Shown here one piece after another: positions 5,238 through 19,902 of a stretch of DNA of 23,211 nt. Each line of letters begins with the position of its first letter. The first letter of the stretch is position 1. The position numbers were made by a program, and so were the translations under genes. The notes under the pieces are model-generated. The model ran no database searches. It had not been told where the DNA came from and worked only from the letters and a program-made list of their open reading frames with translations. Source of the DNA: a virus; the IMG/VR virus record IMGVR_UViG_3300042197_001243, positions 1 to 23,211 of that record; one strand, written 5' to 3'.

Positions 5238-5882
5238 TTATCCTAGCACTTTTTTTGCTATAGCTGAAACTGCCATTTTTTGAAGTCGTGGAAGTTTGCT
5301 GTAGGTTTCAAGACCTTCATTTGTGCTGATTGGACGATTGCGAACTTTGGTCATAAACTCAGCACTTCTTCCATACTTCATATCTCCAACAGAAACTTCT
5401 TGGTCTAAGCCGGGAAACTGTGAATTGTTGGTTCCATAAAGCTTAACATCTTTTCCGCCTTGTGGCACAACCAAAATGGAATCTTGACAATACTTTTTGC
5501 CAAGCACTTTGATCTGATCGTAAAAAGATGGATCATCTTGTAGATTTACAACAAACAAAGAATCTTCTTTAACTTCGATTGCATCTGGTGTATCGAACTT
5601 TTCTACGAAAGTTCCATCAACTGCTGTAACGCCATAACCAAGCTTTAAAAGCGTTGCTTTAAGATCACGATTATTAAGTTTGTTAATATCAAGCTTTTGT
5701 AGATTATCCGCTTGATAAGAAGAAGGAGTATTATCGTGAATACAACTGGAGTGATCAGATGGATCTCCTCTAAATGCTGTAATAATAGCACAATCATGTT
5801 CTGAAACATGTTGGTGTATTCTTGACAAAGAAGATTCTTGAATTACTTCTCTTACTACACCTTTTAGTTCATTAAGATCCAC
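5238..5882 (-). CDS. phage hypothetical protein, DUF3293-like pattern
   Basis: A protein of 214 residues. The start is GTG at 5882, supported by GAGGG upstream; no ATG fits as well. The N-terminus is an amphipathic helix (LNELKGVVREVIQES). The central part, IITAFRGD, then NRDLKATLLKLGYGVTAVDGTFVE, then EDSLFVVNL, LGKKYCQDSILVV and KLYGTN, follows the order of small phage/bacterial proteins of the DUF3293 type: a strand with ITA, a helix that repeats 'L...L...GY', a hydrophobic strand, then 'LG..Y.Q.s.l'. The function of that group is unknown. The C-terminal 60 residues carry KYGRSAEFMTKVRNRP. It lies in the 6396 operon. Confidence 0.75.
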   Translation of the reverse strand: MDLNELKGVVREVIQESSLSRIHQHVSEHDCAIITAFRGDPSDHSSCIHDNTPSSYQADNLQKLDINKLNNRDLKATLLKLGYGVTAVDGTFVEKFDTPDAIEVKEDSLFVVNLQDDPSFYDQIKVLGKKYCQDSILVVPQGGKDVKLYGTNNSQFPGLDQEVSVGDMKYGRSAEFMTKVRNRPISTNEGLETYSKLPRLQKMAVSAIAKKVLG

Positions 5883-5885
5883 TTT

Positions 5886-6170
5886 TTAACCCTCCAATTC
5901 TTTTACAGTAGCCAAAATATAATTGTCTGTTACTAAATAGAACTTTTGCTTGTTTATCTCTATTTCTTCCATAACATTTGTTGGAACTAAAATAAGAGAT
6001 TCTGGCTCATATTTGGCATTTGAGTCCTCAATAACTCGCATAACTTTATAAGGTTCTTCTTTCTCCCGATAGTTGGTTGGGAGCACAAATGACCTTTCCT
6101 CTTGTTTATGTATATTAACATCTTTCTCTTCTACAAGCAAGTATCTATTTCGTGGGGATAGAAAATACAT
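5886..6170 (-). CDS. possible GroES/gp31-like co-chaperonin
   Basis: A protein of 94 residues from the ATG at 6170, chosen over an upstream TTG (6182) because GAGG lies 6 bases before it. Length and layout suggest the Cpn10 fold: an N-terminal FLSPRNRYLLVEE strand, like the 'kPL.DRvLV' of GroES; a polar stretch at about 16-27 where GroES has its mobile loop; FVLP; then KVMRVIED, a loop, SLILVP, a turn, and a final YLVTDNYILATVKE strand like the GroES C-terminus 'eylil.e.dIlAvv'. A co-chaperonin would redirect host GroEL as T4 gp31 does for capsid folding. The identity rests on pattern, not on an obvious signature, and a plain beta-barrel of other function is possible. Confidence 0.5.
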   Translation of the reverse strand: MYFLSPRNRYLLVEEKDVNIHKQEERSFVLPTNYREKEEPYKVMRVIEDSNAKYEPESLILVPTNVMEEIEINKQKFYLVTDNYILATVKELEG

Positions 6171-6171
6171 A

Positions 6172-6396
6172 TTATACCTCAATAAACCTTTTGTTTAAAT
6201 TATATTCATCTTTAGAAAAGAAGTTGGTTGCTCTTTTGTTGCAATATTTACAACAAAAATCAGCAGAAATCAAACCATTAAATATGGTTTCAACCCTTCC
6301 AGTAGGAATCCAATAATGAATTCTACTTTCTGGATCAGAAGGATTACACTTCTTATTTTGTTCTTCTCTTGGGACTAAATGATTGCACTTTTCCAT
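6172..6396 (-). CDS. small putative zinc-binding protein, first gene of the operon
   Basis: A protein of 74 residues with cysteines and histidines placed like a zinc ribbon: CNHL (C4, H6), C17, an RIHYWIPTGRVE strand, then FCCKYCNKRA (C48, C49, C52). No named family is recognised. The ATG has the strongest ribosome-binding site in the window (AGGAGG, 4 bases away), and that site lies in the 3' arm of a perfect 11 bp inverted repeat that also contains the promoter. It ends one base before the GroES-like start (TAATATG). Confidence 0.8.
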   Translation of the reverse strand: MEKCNHLVPREEQNKKCNPSDPESRIHYWIPTGRVETIFNGLISADFCCKYCNKRATNFFSKDEYNLNKRFIEV

Positions 6397-6401
6397 ATAT
6401 C

Positions 6402-6440
6402 CTCCTGTTTGGCTATAAAATAAATATAACCAAACAGGAG
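6402..6440 (-). promoter_or_regulatory. perfect 11 bp inverted repeat (hairpin A) enclosing a promoter and hiding an SD
   Basis: The arms 6402-6412 and 6430-6440 (CTCCTGTTTGG / CCAAACAGGAG) are perfectly complementary with a 17-base AT-only-but-one loop. On the minus strand the 3' arm contains most of the AGGAGG ribosome-binding site of the gene at 6396, and the 5' arm (CTCCTG) mimics the anti-SD end of 16S rRNA. RNA reading through from nrdJ would fold and occlude the site; RNA begun at the nested promoter lacks the 5' arm. It could also slow or end transcription after nrdJ, but there is no U-tract. Confidence 0.75.
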
Positions 6441-6451
6441 AACTATGTCAA
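6423..6451 (-). promoter_or_regulatory. sigma-70-type promoter PA (TTGACA-17-TATATT)
   Basis: On the minus strand the -35 TTGACA (6446-6451) and -10 TATATT (6423-6428) are separated by exactly 17 bases. The -35 starts one base after the nrdJ stop codon. The expected start is near 6416, in the loop of the hairpin, giving a leader of about 20 bases with AGGAGG. It should drive the operon from 6396 through thyX to the polymerase. Confidence 0.8.
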
Positions 6452-6452
6452 G

Positions 6453-8858
6453 TTAGTTGCATTTACTCCAACCACAAGTCGTGCAACTTACGCAACCATC
6501 TTGATAAGAAAGCTCGGTTGAACCACATTCATCACAAGTTTTCTGACCAGTAGCTTTTGTACCGTTTGGAACATATTGTTTTAGAACTCTGGCGATGCAA
6601 CGTGCGAAAGAGAACATATCAGATGTTTCGTCTTTTTGCATTTGTTCAACAACATAGTTGATTGGAGCACCGTGACGAAGAGATAGAGAAAGTAATCTTG
6701 TAAATGCTGAATAGTTTGCATTATCAAATACTTGCACAACATCTTTTACTGTTAAATCATCTACAACCAAATCGTATCTTGCTTTGTTCTTTGTAATAGA
6801 TGTTTTAAGAATAGTTCCTTTCTTTGCACTCTTTGGAAGATCTACAAGCTTGTTTGCTCCACCAAGGATTTCGTATGGTTTATTATCAAGCAATCCAACA
6901 AGAACAGTCCATTTTTCGCCTTTTACAGTTAGATTGTGAATATCACATTCAAGTGTTTGAGGGCGTTTTGGTGCATTATATTGTGGAAATACATCTTTCT
7001 TGGTTTCTGTGATAAGAACACCATCACGGGAACCATCGACATATACTGTAATACCTTTCAATCCAAGCTTCCAGCCAAGTTGATAAAGTTCTGCAACTAC
7101 TTCTGGTGCTGTTCCTTTTGGAAGATTGATTGTAGAAGAAATAGAATGGTCAATATGCTTTTGAATAATACTTTGAATCTCAACTCTGCGTTTCCAATCA
7201 ATTTTATCTGATTCTGTAAAGAAATGTGGAACAATATCTGTTTCAAATCTAGCCAAATATTGACTTACATTATGATGATAAACTTTATATTCTGCCCATT
7301 TATCACCAACAGAATCAACAAATGCTGCTATTTGGTCTTGTTCGTTGTGTGAAAGTTTGCGACGACGAATATAAAAGTTACGGAATACTGGCTCCAAACC
7401 AGATGAAGTTTGAGAAAGAATAGAAACAGAGCCAGTTGGAGCATTAGTTAGAATACTAATATTTCTACGACCATTTATTCTAATCATATCTTGAATATGC
7501 AAAGGAAGAGATTTAATAAACTCATTATCTTTTTCTTTTTCCCAATCAAACACAGGGAACGCACCACGCTCTTGTGCGAGAATACAAGATTCTGTATAAG
7601 CAGATCCTTTTAATGTTGCATAAATATTATCTATTACTACTAACGCATCTGCTGAATCGTATGGAAGTCCCATACAAGCCAAAGCATCAGCTAATCCGTG
7701 GGTTCCAAGTCCTGTTCTACGTCCATTTTTACAAGCATCATATAACTTTTGCCATAGTTCTTTTTCATCTGGCATATCTGCTTTGGTTATGATTGAAGCA
7801 AGTTTTTCAAGTTCAAGTTCAATAAGATCGTCAGACAATCTCATAGCACGATAAGCAACATGACCAAGCTTTACATAATCAAATTTTGCATGTTCTGTAA
7901 ATGGATCGGATACAAATGATTTTAGATTAATAGATATAAGACGACAAGAATCATAAGCAGAAAGAGGAATTTCTCCACAAGGATTAGTAGTTACTGTCTT
8001 AAACCCACAATCTTTGTAGCTTTCTGCTGGCAAGTACTTTTCAATATTGCCCCACATTAAGAGTCCGGGTTCTGCGGTTTTCGTTGCAGAATCAACGATA
8101 CTTTTCCATAAATCTCTGGCTCTAATAGTTTTAGTGTAAGTAGGATTAAGGGAAGCAACAGGAAATCCAAGAGTAAAATCCTTGTCTTGTTCCACAGCTT
8201 CCATAAAATCGTCTGAAATCCTAATTGAGACATTTGCACCTGTAACCTTTGTTAAGTCTTGTTTCATTATAGCAAATTTTTCAACGTCAGGGTGTCTTAC
8301 ATCAATAGAAATCATAAGAGCACCACGACGACCATTTTGGCCAATCATTCTACAAACATAAGAATAAAAGTCGGCAAACGACCAAGCACCAGTTGTAGTA
8401 CCAGCAGAATTATTTACCGACATTCCTTCTGGACGTAGATTTGAAATATCAATACCTACACCACAACGACGTTTAAATAAATTCGCAAGATGCTTGCCAG
8501 AATCAACAATAGATGAAACATTATCGTCTGGGGAGGCAACAACTACACAATTTGATAATGAAGCAATAGAGAAGTTATTGCCAACACCAAACATAGGCGA
8601 GCCTTGTGGAACAATATGTTTAAAATCTTTTATATCATCTAAGATTTGTTCATACGATAATTGTCCTGCTCCACCAAACTTTGCTTCGATACGAGCAAAC
8701 TCAGAAGCCAAACGTTTATGCATATCGTCTGGTGTTACTTCTTCGTATGTTCCTTGTTTATTTTTAAGAGCATATTTTGTCATAAAGACATTTGCGGCGA
8801 GTTCATCACCTTTAAAATATTTTAAGCTTGCATCTAATACTTCTTGTTTGTTATACAT
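6453..8858 (-). CDS. nrdJ: class II (adenosylcobalamin-dependent) ribonucleotide reductase NrdJ
   Basis: It reduces ribonucleotides to deoxyribonucleotides in one polypeptide, with a cobalamin radical. The protein has 801 residues, normal for single-chain NrdJ. Seen: SNCVVVASP with redox C104; RCGVGIDISNLRP; the NGRRGALMISID block; TNPCGEIPL with active-site N292, C294 and E296; the second redox cysteine C305; NAPTGSVSILSQTSSGLEPVF; HSISSTINLPKGT; and GLKGITVYVDGSRD. The C-terminus is a four-cysteine zinc/redox tail (C775, C778, C792, C795, final KCN) as in bacterial NrdJ. No NrdB-like or NrdD/NrdG partner is present, and the NPTGSVS-type arrangement fits class II. The start overlaps the helicase end by 8 bases, so both come from the promoter at 10257-10285. 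It depends on host or scavenged cobalamin (inference). Confidence 0.95.
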   Translation of the reverse strand: MYNKQEVLDASLKYFKGDELAANVFMTKYALKNKQGTYEEVTPDDMHKRLASEFARIEAKFGGAGQLSYEQILDDIKDFKHIVPQGSPMFGVGNNFSIASLSNCVVVASPDDNVSSIVDSGKHLANLFKRRCGVGIDISNLRPEGMSVNNSAGTTTGAWSFADFYSYVCRMIGQNGRRGALMISIDVRHPDVEKFAIMKQDLTKVTGANVSIRISDDFMEAVEQDKDFTLGFPVASLNPTYTKTIRARDLWKSIVDSATKTAEPGLLMWGNIEKYLPAESYKDCGFKTVTTNPCGEIPLSAYDSCRLISINLKSFVSDPFTEHAKFDYVKLGHVAYRAMRLSDDLIELELEKLASIITKADMPDEKELWQKLYDACKNGRRTGLGTHGLADALACMGLPYDSADALVVIDNIYATLKGSAYTESCILAQERGAFPVFDWEKEKDNEFIKSLPLHIQDMIRINGRRNISILTNAPTGSVSILSQTSSGLEPVFRNFYIRRRKLSHNEQDQIAAFVDSVGDKWAEYKVYHHNVSQYLARFETDIVPHFFTESDKIDWKRRVEIQSIIQKHIDHSISSTINLPKGTAPEVVAELYQLGWKLGLKGITVYVDGSRDGVLITETKKDVFPQYNAPKRPQTLECDIHNLTVKGEKWTVLVGLLDNKPYEILGGANKLVDLPKSAKKGTILKTSITKNKARYDLVVDDLTVKDVVQVFDNANYSAFTRLLSLSLRHGAPINYVVEQMQKDETSDMFSFARCIARVLKQYVPNGTKATGQKTCDECGSTELSYQDGCVSCTTCGWSKCN

Positions 8859-10289: not shown

Positions 10290-12506
10290 TTAGTCCAAAA
10301 ACATCTTCCATCTATTGTTAATATATTTGAACTCTTGAAGTTTTTGTTTTGGAACAGTATTTTGAGCTTTGAACAAGGAGTTTATTAGGGCAGTCATATT
10401 GTGAGCTATGGTTGCTTTTGAAGATGTAATCATTTCTCTTGTAGCTTCAACGTATTTATCTTCTACGCCCTTGGGTAGTTCTAACTTGATATAGATCATA
10501 AAGTCATCATCTAAATCAAAGAATACATCAAGTAGTTCATACTGTGGAAACTTATAGATATTCTTCTTTATTTGTGAAATAAAGGTTTTGTTTGATAAGT
10601 TTGCTTTTAGTACATCCAAACTTTTAATGTCTGATAGTGGGATAAAAACTCCTATTTCCGCAACAATCGCATCTGGATTATCATAGTCAGTTTCATCAGA
10701 TTCTAAATTCCATTCAACGCCATCTGTTTCAGCTTCGCCATCAACAATATATCTGTTAAAGTTTATTAGTGCTCCACCATTTATTACGCCTTCTCTTCTC
10801 AAATAACCTTCAATTATATAATCAAGAACTGCTACTTTATCGTCTTTGGCAATAAACTGATAATGGATATTTCCTAGATATTCGTGCAAATCTTCTTCAT
10901 TACCAATAAAGGTGTCAAGAAAATCAGGTATTTTCAAAAAGAACTTTATTCTTATTGTTGTTGAAGTATCCTCGACCTTTATTTGATCCCAATCACCAAT
11001 AAACTTTGGCTCAACAAACTCGTTTAGTTCTTGGTGTAAATAACGAAGTCCTTTTTGAGATAATAAAAATTCAAGAGATTTCTCATTTATTACATCTTTC
11101 TTATAAACATCATAATAATAATATGTTCTTGGATCAATATAAACATCTTCACCTTCAATCATAACCATAGGTGGCTTTTCGCATAATAATGGAATATCTT
11201 CTTTCTGACTATTAATATTAAACTGTTCTACTATATCTGCTGCTAGTTGCTGTAAGTTTCCAACGTTTTCAATATCTATTTCATTTTGAGTAGTAGCATC
11301 ATAATTTGTATGGTTAGAAAGCTTATACTTTTCCAAAGAAGGAATAAACTGTTTTAATTTATAAAATAGATTTTCGATTTCTGTATCTTGATATTTTCCG
11401 CCAATACGATAAAAATCAGATAGGTTTATTTCTTTATCTTCGGAATAATATTGTATTATTTCATCAAAATCAGAACCTTGGTTCTTTACGGCCCATTCGG
11501 TTACTGTTTCTCTAAATCCTTTAATATCTTCGCCATAAACTCTATCTTCTGGAATAGCAAGTGTCACGCCTATTTCTGGTTGATTTAGACCTCTCAAACG
11601 TAATCTTGCGATTGGATCAACGATTTGCTCACCTCTTATTTCGTCAGAGAGAATAAACTTTTGGGTTAGATCAACGTCTTTTATATCAGCAGTTTTAACC
11701 AAGAAAGCAATAGCACCACCGTCACGGGCTTCTGCAATAGCACAGTTATAATAAGAACCACCACCAGCATATTTTCCAGTTGGTCTTGATTTTGGTGCGT
11801 GGCAAGAGTTAATATCTTTGAAGTCAGACATTCTCAAAACATCTACGGGGTGTCTTGAAAAGAGAACAGAATAAGTTGATTCTTCTGCCATTTTACCTTT
11901 TATTTTTGACGCTTCTGATTGCCAAGTTTTGATAAACTCATTTATTCTTTGTTCGGCTTTCTTGAAAGCCATACCAGAAGCATATTGACCAGCTACTGTT
12001 TCTCCCATTAAAGCCTGTAATTGAGAACTTATTTTATTTAGTTCTGGATTGGTTGCCACATATTCTGCAATATCGGCAAGATCTGGACTTTGTTTGTATG
12101 CATTATCGAATATTATTTCGTGTTTTTTTAATAAATCTAAAAATGTAGTCCAAATGGCATTTACCTTCATCTGACGGGTTTGTTTTCTAACAACGCCTTC
12201 AAACTCTCTTTCGGTTTCTTTTGATGCTAAGCCAGTATTTAAATCTACTTTCCAACCTGCAAGTCCAAGTTGATTTAATAGTTTGCCTAATGGACCTTCA
12301 TCCCTATAAGGATCATAAGCAATAGGGACAACAACTCTTAACTTTCCACCAAACTGATCATTAAATGGTAAAGCTTGTGGATGATTTGTTGCTTTATCTA
12401 TTGCTTGTGAAATAGATTGAAGTTCTTCATCTGTTATCTCTGTCAAGAGATCGTTTAGATGATTATTCCATTCTTTAAAGATGTTCTTCGATTTTTGGAA
12501 GTTCAT
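10290..12506 (-). CDS. large phage protein, probably virion-associated (unknown function)
   Basis: A protein of 738 residues from the ATG at 12506; the frame can be extended to a TTG at 12536 but the N-terminus MNFQKSKNIFKEWNNHLNDLL from the ATG matches the packaged-protein peptide seen at 13791 and 15082. A central block, LFSRHPVDVLRMSDFKDINSCHAPKS, then GSYYNCAIAEARDGGAIAFLVK (about residues 225-275), is one I recognise from large proteins of marine and T4-like phages, with paired cysteines (SCH ... YYNC) but no assigned activity. The N-terminal 200 residues look helical; the C-terminal 350 are mixed alpha/beta with many acidic residues. No SD is visible; a 12-base motif related to ACTATTTATTAT ends one base before the ATG. 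The function is unknown; a head-packaged enzyme or scaffold is possible. Confidence 0.8.
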   Translation of the reverse strand: MNFQKSKNIFKEWNNHLNDLLTEITDEELQSISQAIDKATNHPQALPFNDQFGGKLRVVVPIAYDPYRDEGPLGKLLNQLGLAGWKVDLNTGLASKETEREFEGVVRKQTRQMKVNAIWTTFLDLLKKHEIIFDNAYKQSPDLADIAEYVATNPELNKISSQLQALMGETVAGQYASGMAFKKAEQRINEFIKTWQSEASKIKGKMAEESTYSVLFSRHPVDVLRMSDFKDINSCHAPKSRPTGKYAGGGSYYNCAIAEARDGGAIAFLVKTADIKDVDLTQKFILSDEIRGEQIVDPIARLRLRGLNQPEIGVTLAIPEDRVYGEDIKGFRETVTEWAVKNQGSDFDEIIQYYSEDKEINLSDFYRIGGKYQDTEIENLFYKLKQFIPSLEKYKLSNHTNYDATTQNEIDIENVGNLQQLAADIVEQFNINSQKEDIPLLCEKPPMVMIEGEDVYIDPRTYYYYDVYKKDVINEKSLEFLLSQKGLRYLHQELNEFVEPKFIGDWDQIKVEDTSTTIRIKFFLKIPDFLDTFIGNEEDLHEYLGNIHYQFIAKDDKVAVLDYIIEGYLRREGVINGGALINFNRYIVDGEAETDGVEWNLESDETDYDNPDAIVAEIGVFIPLSDIKSLDVLKANLSNKTFISQIKKNIYKFPQYELLDVFFDLDDDFMIYIKLELPKGVEDKYVEATREMITSSKATIAHNMTALINSLFKAQNTVPKQKLQEFKYINNRWKMFLD

Positions 12507-12597: not shown

Positions 12598-13347
12598 ATG
12601 TATAAATTATATATTATAAAAAATAAAATTAACAATAAAATTTATATTGGTCAAACAAAAACATCAATAAATAAAAGATGGATAGGGCATAAAAGCAGAG
12701 CAAATAAAGGTTCTAAACTTGTATTACATTCTGCTATGAGATTGCATGGAATTGAGAACTTTGATATTGAGTTATTAGACACGGCAAATAATTTAGAAGA
12801 AGCAAATCAAAAAGAATATATTCTAATAAATGAGCATAATTCTAAATGTCCAAACGGCTACAATATGGTTGATGGAGGAAATGTTGAGTTTCCAAATGCA
12901 ATACAACCTAAATCAAAAGAACATAAACAAAAGATACAAAGTAGTCATATAAAAAATGCCAAACCTATTATCCAATTTGATATTGCTACTGGCAATTTTA
13001 TAAAAGAGTGGAATTCTGGTAAAGAATTATTAAGAAATAATTATAATCGCACCAACATCATAGCATTATGTAAATCTACAAACAACTTTGGTTATATTTA
13101 TGGATTTGGATGGTGTTATAAAAAATATTATGACAGTATAGAGCTTAAATTAATACTTTCAAATCCAAACTATAATCCACATGGAAGAACAATACAATCA
13201 ATTGATAAAGATGGTAATATTGTAAAAACATATTACAAACTTATTGACGCTGCAAAAGATATGAATTGTAGCCCTTGCAGTATTGGCGATGTTTTGGCGG
13301 GGCGAATTAAAAGATGTAAAGGATTATTTTGGAGATATGCCGATTAG
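12598..13347 (+). CDS. GIY-YIG homing endonuclease with NUMOD1-type repeats
   Basis: A free-standing homing endonuclease of 249 residues, the only convincing plus-strand gene. The catalytic domain begins with LYIIKNKINNKIYIGQT (residues 4-20), the GIY...YIG pair with LYI in the first half, followed by the catalytic arginine region (INKRWIGH), the glutamate of NQKEYILI and the NGYNMVDGG block. Two DNA-binding modules follow: KPIIQFDIATGNFIKEW (about 125-165) and TIQSIDKDGNIVKTYYKL to FWRYAD (about 200-249), both of the NUMOD1 type. GGAG precedes the ATG by 5 bases. It lies between two minus-strand head-type genes and converges on the next with a 3-base gap, as expected for a mobile gene inserted at a gene border. 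Confidence 0.92.
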   Translation: MYKLYIIKNKINNKIYIGQTKTSINKRWIGHKSRANKGSKLVLHSAMRLHGIENFDIELLDTANNLEEANQKEYILINEHNSKCPNGYNMVDGGNVEFPNAIQPKSKEHKQKIQSSHIKNAKPIIQFDIATGNFIKEWNSGKELLRNNYNRTNIIALCKSTNNFGYIYGFGWCYKKYYDSIELKLILSNPNYNPHGRTIQSIDKDGNIVKTYYKLIDAAKDMNCSPCSIGDVLAGRIKRCKGLFWRYAD

Positions 13348-13798: not shown

Positions 13799-15082
13799 TT
13801 AGTCCTTTTTCTTTTTCTTAACCCAAGAGATTGGTTTGGAAGATTTCTTTTTTCTTAGTGGTCCTCTACCGGCAGCTTTGCACTGTGCCTTTGTTGGTCT
13901 GCAAGCTGGATATTTGCCACCTTTTTTATCTGCGCTACTTCTTCCACAAGGACCGCCAGTTCTACAATTTATCCAACCTTTGCCTTTATTTCTTGCGAAC
14001 CATCCGTGAAGCCCTTGTTTCTTTTCTCTTGAAAAATTTGGTTTATATGGTTTTTTCTTTTTCGCTTCGTCTATTATTTCTTCTTCAAGAAGTTCAATAT
14101 CATCAAATACTATTTCTTCGTTCTTTTTTCTGCCTTGACAGTGGGCTTTTTGTGAGAAACCTTTTGGATTTTTACAATCAATAGAACGCTTGTATTTATC
14201 CGACCATTTTTCTTCTATTGTTTGAAGTTCTTGATCTTCAATTTCTTCGTTTGTTTTTTTAACACAGTTTGGGTACTTTTTTCCAAACATAGTTTTCATA
14301 CCCTTTTGTGTATATCCTTTCCAACATCTTTCATTAAGCAAGGTTTCTTGTTGCTCTTTTTGTAAAGATTGAGTTTTTTTCTTAGAAGCTTCTTTTCTTT
14401 CTTCTGCGTAATCAAGGGCTTTTTTAAGTCTTGCTTTAACATCTGGTTCTTTGGCTCTTTCGTAAGCTACACGCACTCTCTGATGGATCAGATTTATTAT
14501 TTGTGACTGACGGGCATGAGATTTAGATTTAAACGACTCTTTCGATAAAGTATCTTTTATATCTTGTACAGTAGAAAATTTTACACTTACTGTATCTTTT
14601 GGGTTTTCATCTGTGTATAAACGTCTTCCAGAACCTTCTGGTTTTTTACCAGAACCAGTTTTTGGATCTTTTTCTTCTATTAAACTTAGTTCCTCTAATA
14701 AAAGTTGGTATTTTATTTGTTCATCGGTAGCATCTTCAGAAATGCCTTTCCAAATCTCTCCCCTTCTACATCTAACAACAGCACCAGAGGCATAAGCCGA
14801 GGGCCAAACATCATATTTGCTTTTAGCTATTCTGGTGCAGCGATCATCTTTACCTTTCTTTTTCTTTTTTGCTTCTGATAGTGAAGCCTGTAATATATTA
14901 GCTTGGTTTTGTATATTTTGTATTGCAGTTTTTAAATCTATTAGAGCTTTTTGAGCTTCAACTTTTTTCTTTTCGTCTTCCGCTTGTTTTGCATCTGGTG
15001 CGGTAGAAGTTGTTGTAGTAGAAGTGGCATCTTCTTCATTTAAGAATTTGTTCCAGTTTTCTAATAAAAGGTCATATTTCAT
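13799..15082 (-). CDS. modular basic, cysteine-bearing phage protein with DUF5872-like C-terminus
   Basis: A protein of 427 residues built like beads on a string. The N-terminal peptide LLLENWNKFLNEE is a likely capsid-targeting or prohead-cleavage segment. An STTTT linker and a coiled coil (about 35-75) follow. Then come a KYDVWPSAYASGAVVRCRRG module (about 90-108), a basic helical region, an RCWKGYTQKGMKTMFGKKYPNC module (about 256-277), a YKRSIDCKNPKGFSQKAHCQ module (about 302-321), and a C-terminal GLHGWFARNKGKGWINCRTG...CGRSSADKKGG...KCRPT-type domain of the DUF5872 family (about 360-427), ending KKKKKD. Each module is known separately in phage or algal-virus proteins. No SD is visible; the 12-base start motif ends one base before the ATG. 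DNA binding in the head is the best guess, not shown. Confidence 0.85.
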   Translation of the reverse strand: MKYDLLLENWNKFLNEEDATSTTTTSTAPDAKQAEDEKKKVEAQKALIDLKTAIQNIQNQANILQASLSEAKKKKKGKDDRCTRIAKSKYDVWPSAYASGAVVRCRRGEIWKGISEDATDEQIKYQLLLEELSLIEEKDPKTGSGKKPEGSGRRLYTDENPKDTVSVKFSTVQDIKDTLSKESFKSKSHARQSQIINLIHQRVRVAYERAKEPDVKARLKKALDYAEERKEASKKKTQSLQKEQQETLLNERCWKGYTQKGMKTMFGKKYPNCVKKTNEEIEDQELQTIEEKWSDKYKRSIDCKNPKGFSQKAHCQGRKKNEEIVFDDIELLEEEIIDEAKKKKPYKPNFSREKKQGLHGWFARNKGKGWINCRTGGPCGRSSADKKGGKYPACRPTKAQCKAAGRGPLRKKKSSKPISWVKKKKKD

Positions 15083-17527: not shown

Positions 17528-17939
17528 TATTAATAATCCTCATAGACTGAATGTTACCATATTCATCAGAATAAATAACCTTCTTAACTCCAACATATTC
17601 AAGTGCTGCTTCGCACATAGGACACGGCTTAGAGTTGCGAAGAATTCCAGCCTTTCCGATACGGACAACATACATCGTTGCACCTTCGGTAATAGAACGA
17701 TCAAGGCCAAGAACACAGCCAAGCTCTGCATGATGCGTTGCATGACCGCATTGCTTCTTGCGGAAACGCTCTCCCCAAGCACGATACTTATTCTTATTAC
17801 AAGAGGTATTTATAACGGAACCTCCACGAACAAGAACTGCTCCGTGACGATATTCCTTAAACTCGGATTGATCTGCAATCCGCTTTGCAAGCTCAATATA
17901 CCTGCGCTTCTTATGAGACAACTTCGGGTCAGACTCCAT
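17517..17939 (-). CDS. zinc-dependent deaminase, deoxycytidylate-deaminase-like
   Basis: A member of the cytidine/deoxycytidylate deaminase superfamily, 140 residues from the ATG at 17939; a GTG at 17951 lies inside the hairpin arm and is less likely. The zinc site is complete: H-A-E at 70-72 (HHAELGCVLGL) and PCPMC at 105-109. HGAVLVRGGSVI (32-43) is the usual first strand. dCMP is the likely substrate, giving dUMP for ThyX; a tRNA or free-nucleoside deaminase cannot be excluded because no allosteric dCTP site is obvious in this short protein. It heads the operon that continues to the exonuclease and membrane protein. Its SD, AGGTGAT, is in the 3' arm of hairpin B. Confidence 0.85.
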   Translation of the reverse strand: MESDPKLSHKKRRYIELAKRIADQSEFKEYRHGAVLVRGGSVINTSCNKNKYRAWGERFRKKQCGHATHHAELGCVLGLDRSITEGATMYVVRIGKAGILRNSKPCPMCEAALEYVGVKKVIYSDEYGNIQSMRIINNEN

Positions 17940-17944
17940 AAAGA

Positions 17945-17992
17945 CAATCACCTATCGAACATAAGTAATATACCATGACCGATAGGTGATTG
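17945..17992 (-). promoter_or_regulatory. perfect 13 bp inverted repeat (hairpin B) enclosing a promoter and hiding an SD
   Basis: The arms 17945-17957 and 17980-17992 are perfectly complementary with a 22-base loop. On the minus strand the 3' arm contains AGGTGAT (17947-17953), a full match to the anti-SD end of 16S rRNA, placed 7 bases before the deaminase ATG. The 5' arm contains ATCACCT, identical to that anti-SD end. Read-through RNA would seal the site; RNA begun in the loop would not. Confidence 0.8.
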
Positions 17993-17995
17993 CAA
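17967..17995 (-). promoter_or_regulatory. sigma-70-type promoter PB (TTGCAA-17-TATATT)
   Basis: The -35 TTGCAA (17990-17995) overlaps the outer end of the 5' arm, the -10 TATATT (17967-17972) lies in the hairpin loop, and the spacing is 17. The expected start is near 17960, just before the 3' arm, leaving a leader of about 21 bases. It drives the deaminase operon. Confidence 0.75.
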
Positions 17996-18022: not shown

Positions 18023-18670
18023 TTATTTTACTTCTGTATATGTCTTGCCGTTTATTATGGATGCTATTGTTTGCCTTGGGCTATTAAAAATTTTCCCTAT
18101 TTCTCGAAATAACATACCTTGTTCTCTCATATTTCTTATTTGTCTTATTTCTTCTTCTGAAAATTTACTAAACGGATTTTCTGTTCCTTTATATTTATTT
18201 TTTCTTGAAAGAGATATTTTTTCTTTTGTATCAGATTTATGTTTTCTTCCAGTAGATTTAAGTTTCATTTTTTGTTTTGTTTCATCGGAATGTTTTTTAC
18301 CAAAAAAATGATTTTTTTCTCCTATTTGTGATAATGATTTGTTAATACCAAATTCTATTGTGCGTTTAATGCCCAAACAACTACCCGCAATTTCACAAAT
18401 ATTTAATTCTGGTTTTAGTGTGTCTAAAAAATATTGTTCTCTTTGTAATAAAAAATCTTTATCTTGTTTATCTATTGTTTCTAAAATTTCAAACTGAAAT
18501 TTCTCTTCACCATACTTGTTCCAACAATTTTGTAAAACTTTTGAATGATGCTTATTCTTATTCAATAATGATTTATGTATCGTCCAGCGTCTTTCAAAAT
18601 CTACTGTGCTACCAACATAAAATTTATTATTTTCCTTACAGGTTATTTTGTAGATATATGATTTTTCCAT
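18023..18670 (-). CDS. GIY-YIG homing endonuclease with NUMOD3-like repeats and a C-terminal HTH
   Basis: A free-standing homing endonuclease of 215 residues. YIYKITCKENNKFYVGST (5-22) is the GIY...YIG core (YIY/YVG), followed by the catalytic arginine region (FERRWTIHK), the QREQYFLDTLKPELN block with the glutamate and asparagine, then NHFFGKKHSDETKQKM and related STGRKHKSDTKEKISLS (about 120-155), which are NUMOD3-type beads. The end, KFSEEEIRQIRNMREQGMLFREIGKIFNSPRQTIASIING, is a helix-turn-helix. It sits between recA and the deaminase with 35 and about 70 bases on either side, so it is probably a mobile insertion. No SD; the 12-base start motif abuts the ATG. Confidence 0.92.
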   Translation of the reverse strand: MEKSYIYKITCKENNKFYVGSTVDFERRWTIHKSLLNKNKHHSKVLQNCWNKYGEEKFQFEILETIDKQDKDFLLQREQYFLDTLKPELNICEIAGSCLGIKRTIEFGINKSLSQIGEKNHFFGKKHSDETKQKMKLKSTGRKHKSDTKEKISLSRKNKYKGTENPFSKFSEEEIRQIRNMREQGMLFREIGKIFNSPRQTIASIINGKTYTEVK

Positions 18671-18705: not shown

Positions 18706-19836
18706 TTATTCCTCATTTACTTCTAAATTATAATAATTTGAAGCATTACCTGTTTGTTTATCAAATTTAATAATAAGTTCTTCTTCAACAATATTTAATA
18801 CAGTTTTTCTAAATTCTTCATCTTCAAGTTCTTTGGAAAAATCAGAAGATCTAAATTTTTTCTTATTTCCATTTAAAAGAGTAATGTTCCACCAAGCACC
18901 ACTTTCTGCTCTTTCTGATCTAGAAAGTATATCAAGCCACGCTTCATAATCGGACACTTCTATTTTTTCTCCTCCCCATAAAAGCTTTAACGAACATTCT
19001 CTTCCTTCGGTGCCAAAACGAGATTTTTTCAAAACGCATTTAGTTTCCGATCCTATTCTAAATCCTGTGGGTGATACAACATAGCTTGCTTTACTTTTCT
19101 TTGGAGTTAGCCATATTCTAAGTGAATAAGCATATGATAGTGCTTTTCCACCGGGAGTGATAAAAGGATTTATCAACATTTCAGTATGAGCAGTTGGTCC
19201 CATAACGATATTTTGTTTTAATTGATTTAACACAAGAAAAGAACTTTTTTTATTTGCAATTGGTTGTATAAGCTTGGCTAATCCTTTCGACATAATTCTT
19301 GGTTTTACTGCCATAGAAGATTGTGGATTAAAATCGCCTTCTAAATCAGCTAATGATGGAGTAAATGCAAATGAATCAAGAACAAACAAAAAGCGTTCTG
19401 ACTCTCCAAGAAGTTGTTCAATTGTTTCAAGAACAAATTCTATATTAATTGCTTGGGTATAAATAATTTCTCCAACATTACATCCTGCTTTTATTAAAAA
19501 TGCAGGATCTAGCGCCGATTCTGAATCGAAATATACTACTGTCATTCCCATTTTTTGAGCATTTGCAGCTATTTGTGCTGCGAAATAAGATTTACCAGAT
19601 GCCTCAATTCCAGCTAGCTCTGTGATTCTTCCGACAGGTATTCCAGCTTTTTTTCCTCTACAAATAATAGAATCCAAAACATCTGATCCTGTTGGAATCC
19701 ATTCTGTTACTTCTGACGGATTTTGTTCAAGAAGATCAAATGATACTTCTATACCTGCTTTTTTGTTTATAGCTTCTCTTAATTCTGCTATAGAAAGTTT
19801 TCCATTTTTAGTAGTTGTAGTTTTTTTAGTTGCCAT
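18706..19836 (-). CDS. RecA/UvsX-family recombinase
   Basis: It forms filaments on single-stranded DNA for strand exchange and recombination-dependent replication. The protein has 376 residues. Walker A GIEASGKS (76-83), a catalytic glutamate in YFDSESALD (E106), Walker B FLFVLDSFAF (149-158), then VLNQLKQNI and FITPGGKALSYAYSLRIWL (about 225-245), the L2/DNA-binding region and following strand. The C-terminal acidic helix (EDEEFRKTVLNIVEEELI) is typical. It is longer than bacterial RecA cores and lacks strict RecA signature residues, so UvsX-like is the better label. GAGG is 7 bases before the ATG; the upstream region has promoter PC and hairpin C. Confidence 0.93.
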   Translation of the reverse strand: MATKKTTTTKNGKLSIAELREAINKKAGIEVSFDLLEQNPSEVTEWIPTGSDVLDSIICRGKKAGIPVGRITELAGIEASGKSYFAAQIAANAQKMGMTVVYFDSESALDPAFLIKAGCNVGEIIYTQAINIEFVLETIEQLLGESERFLFVLDSFAFTPSLADLEGDFNPQSSMAVKPRIMSKGLAKLIQPIANKKSSFLVLNQLKQNIVMGPTAHTEMLINPFITPGGKALSYAYSLRIWLTPKKSKASYVVSPTGFRIGSETKCVLKKSRFGTEGRECSLKLLWGGEKIEVSDYEAWLDILSRSERAESGAWWNITLLNGNKKKFRSSDFSKELEDEEFRKTVLNIVEEELIIKFDKQTGNASNYYNLEVNEE

Positions 19837-19852
19837 ATTTGAACCTCATAAT

Positions 19853-19893
19853 AATAAAGACGGGCATACTATTAAGATACACCCGTCTTTATT
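19853..19893 (-). terminator. perfect 12 bp inverted repeat (hairpin C), terminator-like, enclosing a promoter
   Basis: The arms 19853-19864 and 19882-19893 (AATAAAGACGGG / CCCGTCTTTATT) are perfect, with a 17-base loop. On the minus strand it follows the single-strand-binding-protein stop by 12 bases and is followed by a T-rich run (TTTATTATTAT), so it resembles an intrinsic terminator. Its loop holds the -10 of the recA promoter, and the GAGG of recA lies 5 bases beyond the 3' arm, so here the SD is not itself paired. Confidence 0.75.
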
Positions 19894-19902
19894 GTTTGTC
19901 AA
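19874..19902 (-). promoter_or_regulatory. sigma-70-type promoter PC (TTGACA-17-TATCTT)
   Basis: The -35 TTGACA (19897-19902) starts 3 bases after the upstream stop codon; the -10 TATCTT (19874-19879) is in the loop of hairpin C; the spacing is 17. The expected start is near 19867, just before the 3' arm. It drives recA. Confidence 0.75.

Follow-up and report, generated by a model that had tools for sequence, protein, structure and literature searches.

A conserved hairpin with an embedded sigma70-type promoter as a probable translational lock against nrdJ read-through in T4-like phages

In phage T4, genes e, soc, 49 and I-TevI are preceded by hairpins that sequester the ribosome-binding site and have a late promoter embedded in them, an established mechanism, and T4 segB and Aeh1 mobE provide further cases of such sequestering hairpins (PMC3014915, PMC2988022). 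The T4 hairpins are understood as keeping late genes silent in early RNA. In the transposable elements IS10 and IS50 a sigma70-type promoter lies inside the element, and RNA reading through from outside folds the inverted repeat over the Shine-Dalgarno sequence (SD) of the transposase gene. Here we describe hairpin A, which combines an SD-burying stem with a sigma70-type promoter at the junction between nrdJ and the next gene of a phage.

The window, as we call the whole stretch of DNA analysed (23,211 nucleotides), corresponds to an entire IMG/VR record and is a fragment of an uncultured T4-like phage, in which uvsX, gp32, a DnaB-like helicase, ThyX and nrdJ were recognised with Pfam or PHROGs. 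The nrdJ product matches phrog_84, ribonucleoside-diphosphate reductase large subunit, with E = 2e-106. The junction consists of the following features, all read on the minus strand:

6453 to 8858, minus strand: nrdJ, B12-type ribonucleotide reductase (open reading frame and phrog_84 match), the upstream gene whose read-through RNA would be gated
6423 to 6451, minus strand: putative promoter PA, TTGACA (6451-6446), 17 nt and TATATT (6428-6423), matching the consensus at 11 of 12 positions
6425 to 6443, minus strand: 5' arm of hairpin A, core 6440-6425, lying within the PA spacer and -10 and bearing the anti-SD CTCC
6418 to 6424, minus strand: loop of hairpin A
6399 to 6417, minus strand: 3' arm of hairpin A, core 6417-6402, holding the SD AGGAGG (6406-6401)
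6172 to 6396, minus strand: the gated gene, encoding by translation a 74-residue cysteine-rich protein (MEKCNHLVPREEQNKKC...) and heading the downstream gene run

The preliminary description of this DNA had placed the -35 box one base past the nrdJ stop, and this is indeed the arrangement, as the TAA (6455-6453) is followed by a single C at 6452 and then by TTGACA. PA is the sole sigma70-like site with an 11/12 match in the first 12 kb of the window, and its -35 and -10 are retained among relatives. When the records of ten relatives are summed, the pattern TTGACA-N16/17-TAnnnT occurs 71 times on coding strands, compared with 12 on the opposite strand and 18 for a reversed-pattern control. Transcription from PA is expected to start near 6416 or 6414 (minus strand), in or past the hairpin loop. 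The gated cysteine-rich protein has relatives of 56-68% identity, and related N-termini are found behind every junction hairpin; a domain search with it returned a sub-threshold zf-DNL match alone (E = 0.032).

The inverted repeat of hairpin A (6402-6417 / 6425-6440) has 16-nt arms and a loop of 7. The stem had been called perfect, and all 16 pairs are present, with the qualification that one is G-U and 15 are Watson-Crick. CTCCTG (6440-6435) faces CAGGAG, so the proposed pairing opposite the AGGAG of the SD for the gene at 6396 holds. Extra G-U pairs lengthen the stem to 6443/6399 (19 pairs), so that the whole AGGAGG, which sits a few bases 5' of the ATG at 6396, is paired. The PA -10 overlaps the loop-proximal part of the 5' arm. 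The 81-nt RNA 6460-6380, whose folding had been suggested as a check, reaches -34.2 kcal/mol (z = -7.4; 0 of 200 dinucleotide shuffles as good), compared with just -0.7 kcal/mol for the shortened RNA 6416-6380 that begins near the expected PA start. Hairpin A is also the most stable 60-nt segment on both strands of the window (-30.5 kcal/mol; mean -7.4, s.d. 3.8). The second most stable fold there, at 16526-16497 (minus strand), is a terminator-like hairpin of 13 pairs followed by TATTCTTTTT, which lies inside the ORF 16643-16380. In an Rfam covariance-model scan of hairpin A the best match was folP RNA, whose gathering score of 99 was not reached (24 bits). Neither the T4 late promoter TATAAATA nor the CTATTTA motif discussed below is found on the sense strand of the element. 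The exact arm sequence has no match elsewhere in the viral contigs, as expected if pairing alone is conserved.

How would such an element work? A polymerase traversing nrdJ would copy both arms, and a stem of 16 to 19 pairs would form in the read-through RNA, burying the SD and leaving the next gene untranslated from nrdJ RNA. A polymerase starting at PA would begin near 6416 and transcribe the 3' arm only; the SD would then be open and the gene translated. In this way the downstream genes would be uncoupled from nrdJ and answer to PA alone. The setting is one in which such a lock could be useful, as nearly all genes are co-oriented and read-through is to be expected. The predicted cost of opening the SD of the window copy is 14.3 kcal/mol in the read-through RNA and 5.1 in the PA RNA, falling to 0.9 if the PA RNA ends 15 nt past the AUG. 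The probability that the SD is unpaired does not exceed 0.012 in the read-through RNA, but it is also near zero in the longer form of the window's PA RNA, as the SD pairs weakly with the coding region, and the contrast is therefore about 9 kcal/mol rather than one of closed to fully open. Over 19 loci the mean costs are 15.5 kcal/mol (10.5-18.9) for read-through and 2.5 (0.2-5.9) for promoter RNA, whereas in the hairpin-less locus L009 they are 4.0 and 1.6. Activity of PA, read-through from nrdJ and the extent to which translation would be affected are what we infer from these data. Taking all the evidence together, we think it probable that hairpin A locks the next gene against translation from nrdJ read-through RNA and that PA, embedded in it, provides the bypass.

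If this is the function of hairpin A, the arrangement should be preserved among relatives. A scan of viral contigs for nrdJ gave 69 loci, of which 25, with nrdJ identity of at least 77% and a complete junction, are considered here as near relatives. In 24 of these 25 a hairpin is found between nrdJ and the homologous small cysteine-rich gene, overlapping the promoter and holding the SD. The -35 of these junction copies is TTGACA or TTGACG, positioned ahead of the 5' arm or at its outer end (degenerate in L004 and L006, with TTGCTA or TTGCAT), TAnnnT is at the inner end of that arm, and the SD is GGAGG, GGGAG, GAGG or GGGG, 4-8 nt 5' of the ATG. In L006 the outer SD bases stick out past the uninterrupted stem, yet the opening cost is still 10.7 kcal/mol. 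The remaining near relative, L009, keeps promoter and gene while the hairpin is absent, and the more distant L043 likewise has the promoter without a hairpin at its nrdJ junction, so that the lock is evidently dispensable; both loci are natural hairpin-less controls. In most of the more distant relatives nrdJ is followed directly by another gene, with no hairpin at the junction.

The pairing itself, rather than the sequence of the arms, appears to be what is maintained. In a MAFFT alignment of 19 copies, L016, L019, L020 and L021 were one base off, and covariation was thus counted on the 15 distinct copies with gap-free arms, in which 98.7% of the cells are paired and 7 of the 16 pairs have changed on both sides; as these copies share kinship, the cell counts do not represent independent events. 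The covariation score is 0.494, compared with 0.218 for shuffled copies (0 of 500 shuffles as high) and at most 0.123 with slid partners. Unguided RNAalifold recovers the same stem, with 8 pairs altered on both sides. Over 18 distinct copies the stem pairs comprise 264 Watson-Crick, 28 G-U and 0 A-C, and since the counting rule treats G-U and A-C alike, this asymmetry indicates selection on the sense-strand RNA and not on a DNA palindrome. The stem and the promoter embedded in it are thus seen, at the level of the aligned sequences, to be conserved jointly and to covary. The preliminary proposal that read-through RNA hides the SD and PA RNA exposes it gains support from this conservation, from the compensatory changes, from the presence of G-U without A-C and from the opening costs.

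Is the nrdJ junction a singular case? Two further overlaps of hairpin and promoter-like site are found in the window:

17944 to 17995, minus strand: TTGCAA-17-TATATT in a 19-pair stem (17993-17975 / 17962-17944), before the ATG at 17939 of a dCMP-deaminase-like gene
19853 to 19902, minus strand: TTGACA-17-TATCTT in a 16-pair stem (19893-19878 / 19868-19853), before the uvsX ATG at 19836

The dCMP-deaminase-like product contains a deaminase domain (PF00383). In relatives of its gene TTGAC is in the loop and the -10 is past the stem; the geometry differs, but the result would be the same, since RNA from such a promoter lacks the stem. In the uvsX hairpins, both of the window and of relatives, the SD is outside the stem. 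A promoter-first scan, covering the ten relatives' records and the window, detected strong helices within strong promoters on the coding strand only: most records have one at the nrdJ junction, the window and G007 have one at uvsX, and one more site was detected in G008 and G010. When the element was turned into a covariance model, it also matched the junction downstream of uvsX in the distant loci L105, L037, L047, L040, L031 and L035; these have TTGACA or TTGACT, and several of them have an SD in the stem.

A hairpin-first scan revealed SD-burying hairpins of another kind, which lack TTGACA and have (A/G/T)CTATTTA in the loop, and which we call class 2:

Class-2 hairpins with CTATTTA in the loop: G001 at 19051 and 23153; G003 (minus strand) at 47769 and 74975; G007 at 6121 and 22818; G008 at 10573; G009 at 29608; L004 at 1312; L016 at 492; L018 at 962

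In class 2 the SD or the AUG is usually in the 3' arm, and the genes behind are of unrelated content. The 8-mer ACTATTTA is the most strand-biased one upstream of genes, present in 75 upstream regions and 0 antisense (records G001-G010, loci L071-L104), and its core CTATTTA is found in 92 of 740 upstream regions compared with 3 antisense (G001-G010). The ACTATTTA(T) motif stands before virion-type genes. It plausibly serves this T4-like clade as its late promoter. The late promoter of Aeh1 is CTAAATA at -12 (PMC1524935), and the motif of the clade is comparable to it and to T4 TATAAATA but different from both. With the sigma70 class on one side and the CTATTTA class 2 on the other, a single architecture would seem to accommodate promoters of two types.

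Several observations were made alongside. The distance from CTATTTA to ATG in G001-G010 is bimodal: 22 sites form a narrow peak at 11-13 nt, and a second, broad peak lies at about 22-30. If transcription began 12 nt from the C, the distance suggested in the case of Aeh1, leaderless late mRNAs would result from the 11-13 nt group. In the window, CTATTTATCTTTATG at 15094-15083 (minus strand) precedes the ORF at 15082. Otherwise unrelated proteins (window 5238-5882 and 13799-15082, both minus strand, and products of relatives' class-2 genes) share the N-terminal motifs MKYDLLLENWNKFLNEE..., MRITEAQLRKIIR... and MDLNELKGVVREVIQESS..., which might, by analogy with the T4 internal head proteins, be capsid-targeting peptides; one of these proteins is S-adenosylmethionine-lyase-like (PF23780, E = 4.4e-9). 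Two ORFs, 12598-13347 on the plus strand of the window, which is otherwise almost empty, and 18023-18670 (minus strand), were read by eye as candidate GIY-YIG homing endonucleases.

Like many DNA operators, the palindrome of hairpin A covers its promoter between the spacer and the start site, and one could think of a dimeric repressor or activator bound to both arms and controlling PA. However, the arms vary freely in sequence among relatives while their pairing is maintained, a second copy of the arm sequence was not found in the viral contigs, and the excess of G-U over A-C is a strand-specific RNA signature to which a DNA palindrome would be indifferent. We therefore give the operator the least credence of all readings, the asymmetry and the compensated arm variation having largely refuted it. 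Scarcely more probable is that the hairpin stabilises the 3' end of nrdJ RNA, or marks a site where nucleases process it, and plays no part in the translation of the next gene. Stable stems behind stop codons commonly protect RNA 3' ends and this stem is 11-13 nt past the nrdJ stop, but such a role does not account for the invariable position of the SD in the 3' arm, for the constant overlap of the 5' arm with the promoter, or for the class-2 hairpins, which embed a late-type motif before other genes.

The more serious alternative, which we nevertheless regard as unlikely, is that hairpin A is primarily an intrinsic terminator of nrdJ RNA with the next promoter tucked in, the burial of the SD being a by-product of compactness. 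The lack of a U-tract had been taken to argue for translational control rather than termination. For the window copy the observation stands: the stem is followed by GGATATATGG, with no U-run, and there are no terminator-like calls at 6400-6450 on the minus strand; this copy has lost the U-run or never had it. As a statement about the family it does not hold, as many relatives have GGAGGTTTTTTATG. Runs of at least four T between SD and ATG are found in 50% of class-1 (n = 16) and 64% of class-2 genes (n = 11), counting genes headed by a hairpin whose stem contains the SD, compared with 3.5% of other SD genes (n = 576; Mann-Whitney p = 3e-10 for U-run length, uncorrected for kinship). The uvsX hairpins, which overlap a promoter-like site and have U-rich tails with the SD outside the stem, also fit a terminator. 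On the other hand, the tail is merely TTATTT in L011, L013-L015 and L017, and across all junction copies it is the SD in the stem that is constant and the U-run that varies. Judging by the U-runs, the family probably has termination as an additional function, which in many relatives the U-run after the SD would add to the translational lock.

We tentatively suggest, as a generalisation on which we remain less than evenly convinced, that the clade routinely fuses hairpin and promoter into elements of about 45 nt, which would at the same time terminate and translationally lock incoming RNA and provide the promoter of the following unit, with sigma70-type promoters at the nrdJ, uvsX and dCMP-deaminase junctions and late-type ACTATTTA in class 2. 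If so, these fused elements would cut a co-oriented phage genome into independent units without separate terminators. Being self-contained, the element of about 45 nt is testable in E. coli reporters and may offer a compact insulator-promoter-RBS part.

How does hairpin A compare with the known systems? As in T4 gene e, the read-through RNA would pair the SD, while the gene's own promoter in the 5' arm would give an RNA without that arm, left open, and the opening costs follow the same pattern (9.1 vs 0.6 kcal/mol by the same method for gene e, for which measurements exist). The promoter, however, is of sigma70 type (TTGACA-17-TATATT) in place of the T4 late TATAAATA, the stem has 15-18 Watson-Crick pairs and that of gene e is shorter, many copies carry a U-run unlike the T4 set, and the gated gene encodes a small cysteine-rich protein with several genes after it, whereas the T4 hairpins gate a lysis, head or homing gene. 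Judged by its sequence PA looks early, while the gated genes of T4 are late, which makes it less obvious why a gene should be gated here; the conserved sigma70-type version suggests a broader use, in which a gene answers to its own promoter only. With intrinsic (Rho-independent) terminators many relatives share stem and U-run, but the window copy lacks the U-run, and the SD within the stem and the embedded promoter set the element apart; no direct precedent for promoter-in-terminator elements in phages was found in the literature searched. IS10 and IS50 resemble hairpin A in their sigma70-type promoter and in the SD hidden in read-through RNA, although those are transposon ends in bacteria, unrelated in sequence, and this is a phage operon junction. 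As the late promoter, a defining feature of the T4 gene e set, is absent, hairpin A is best described as a variant that would work like the T4 members.
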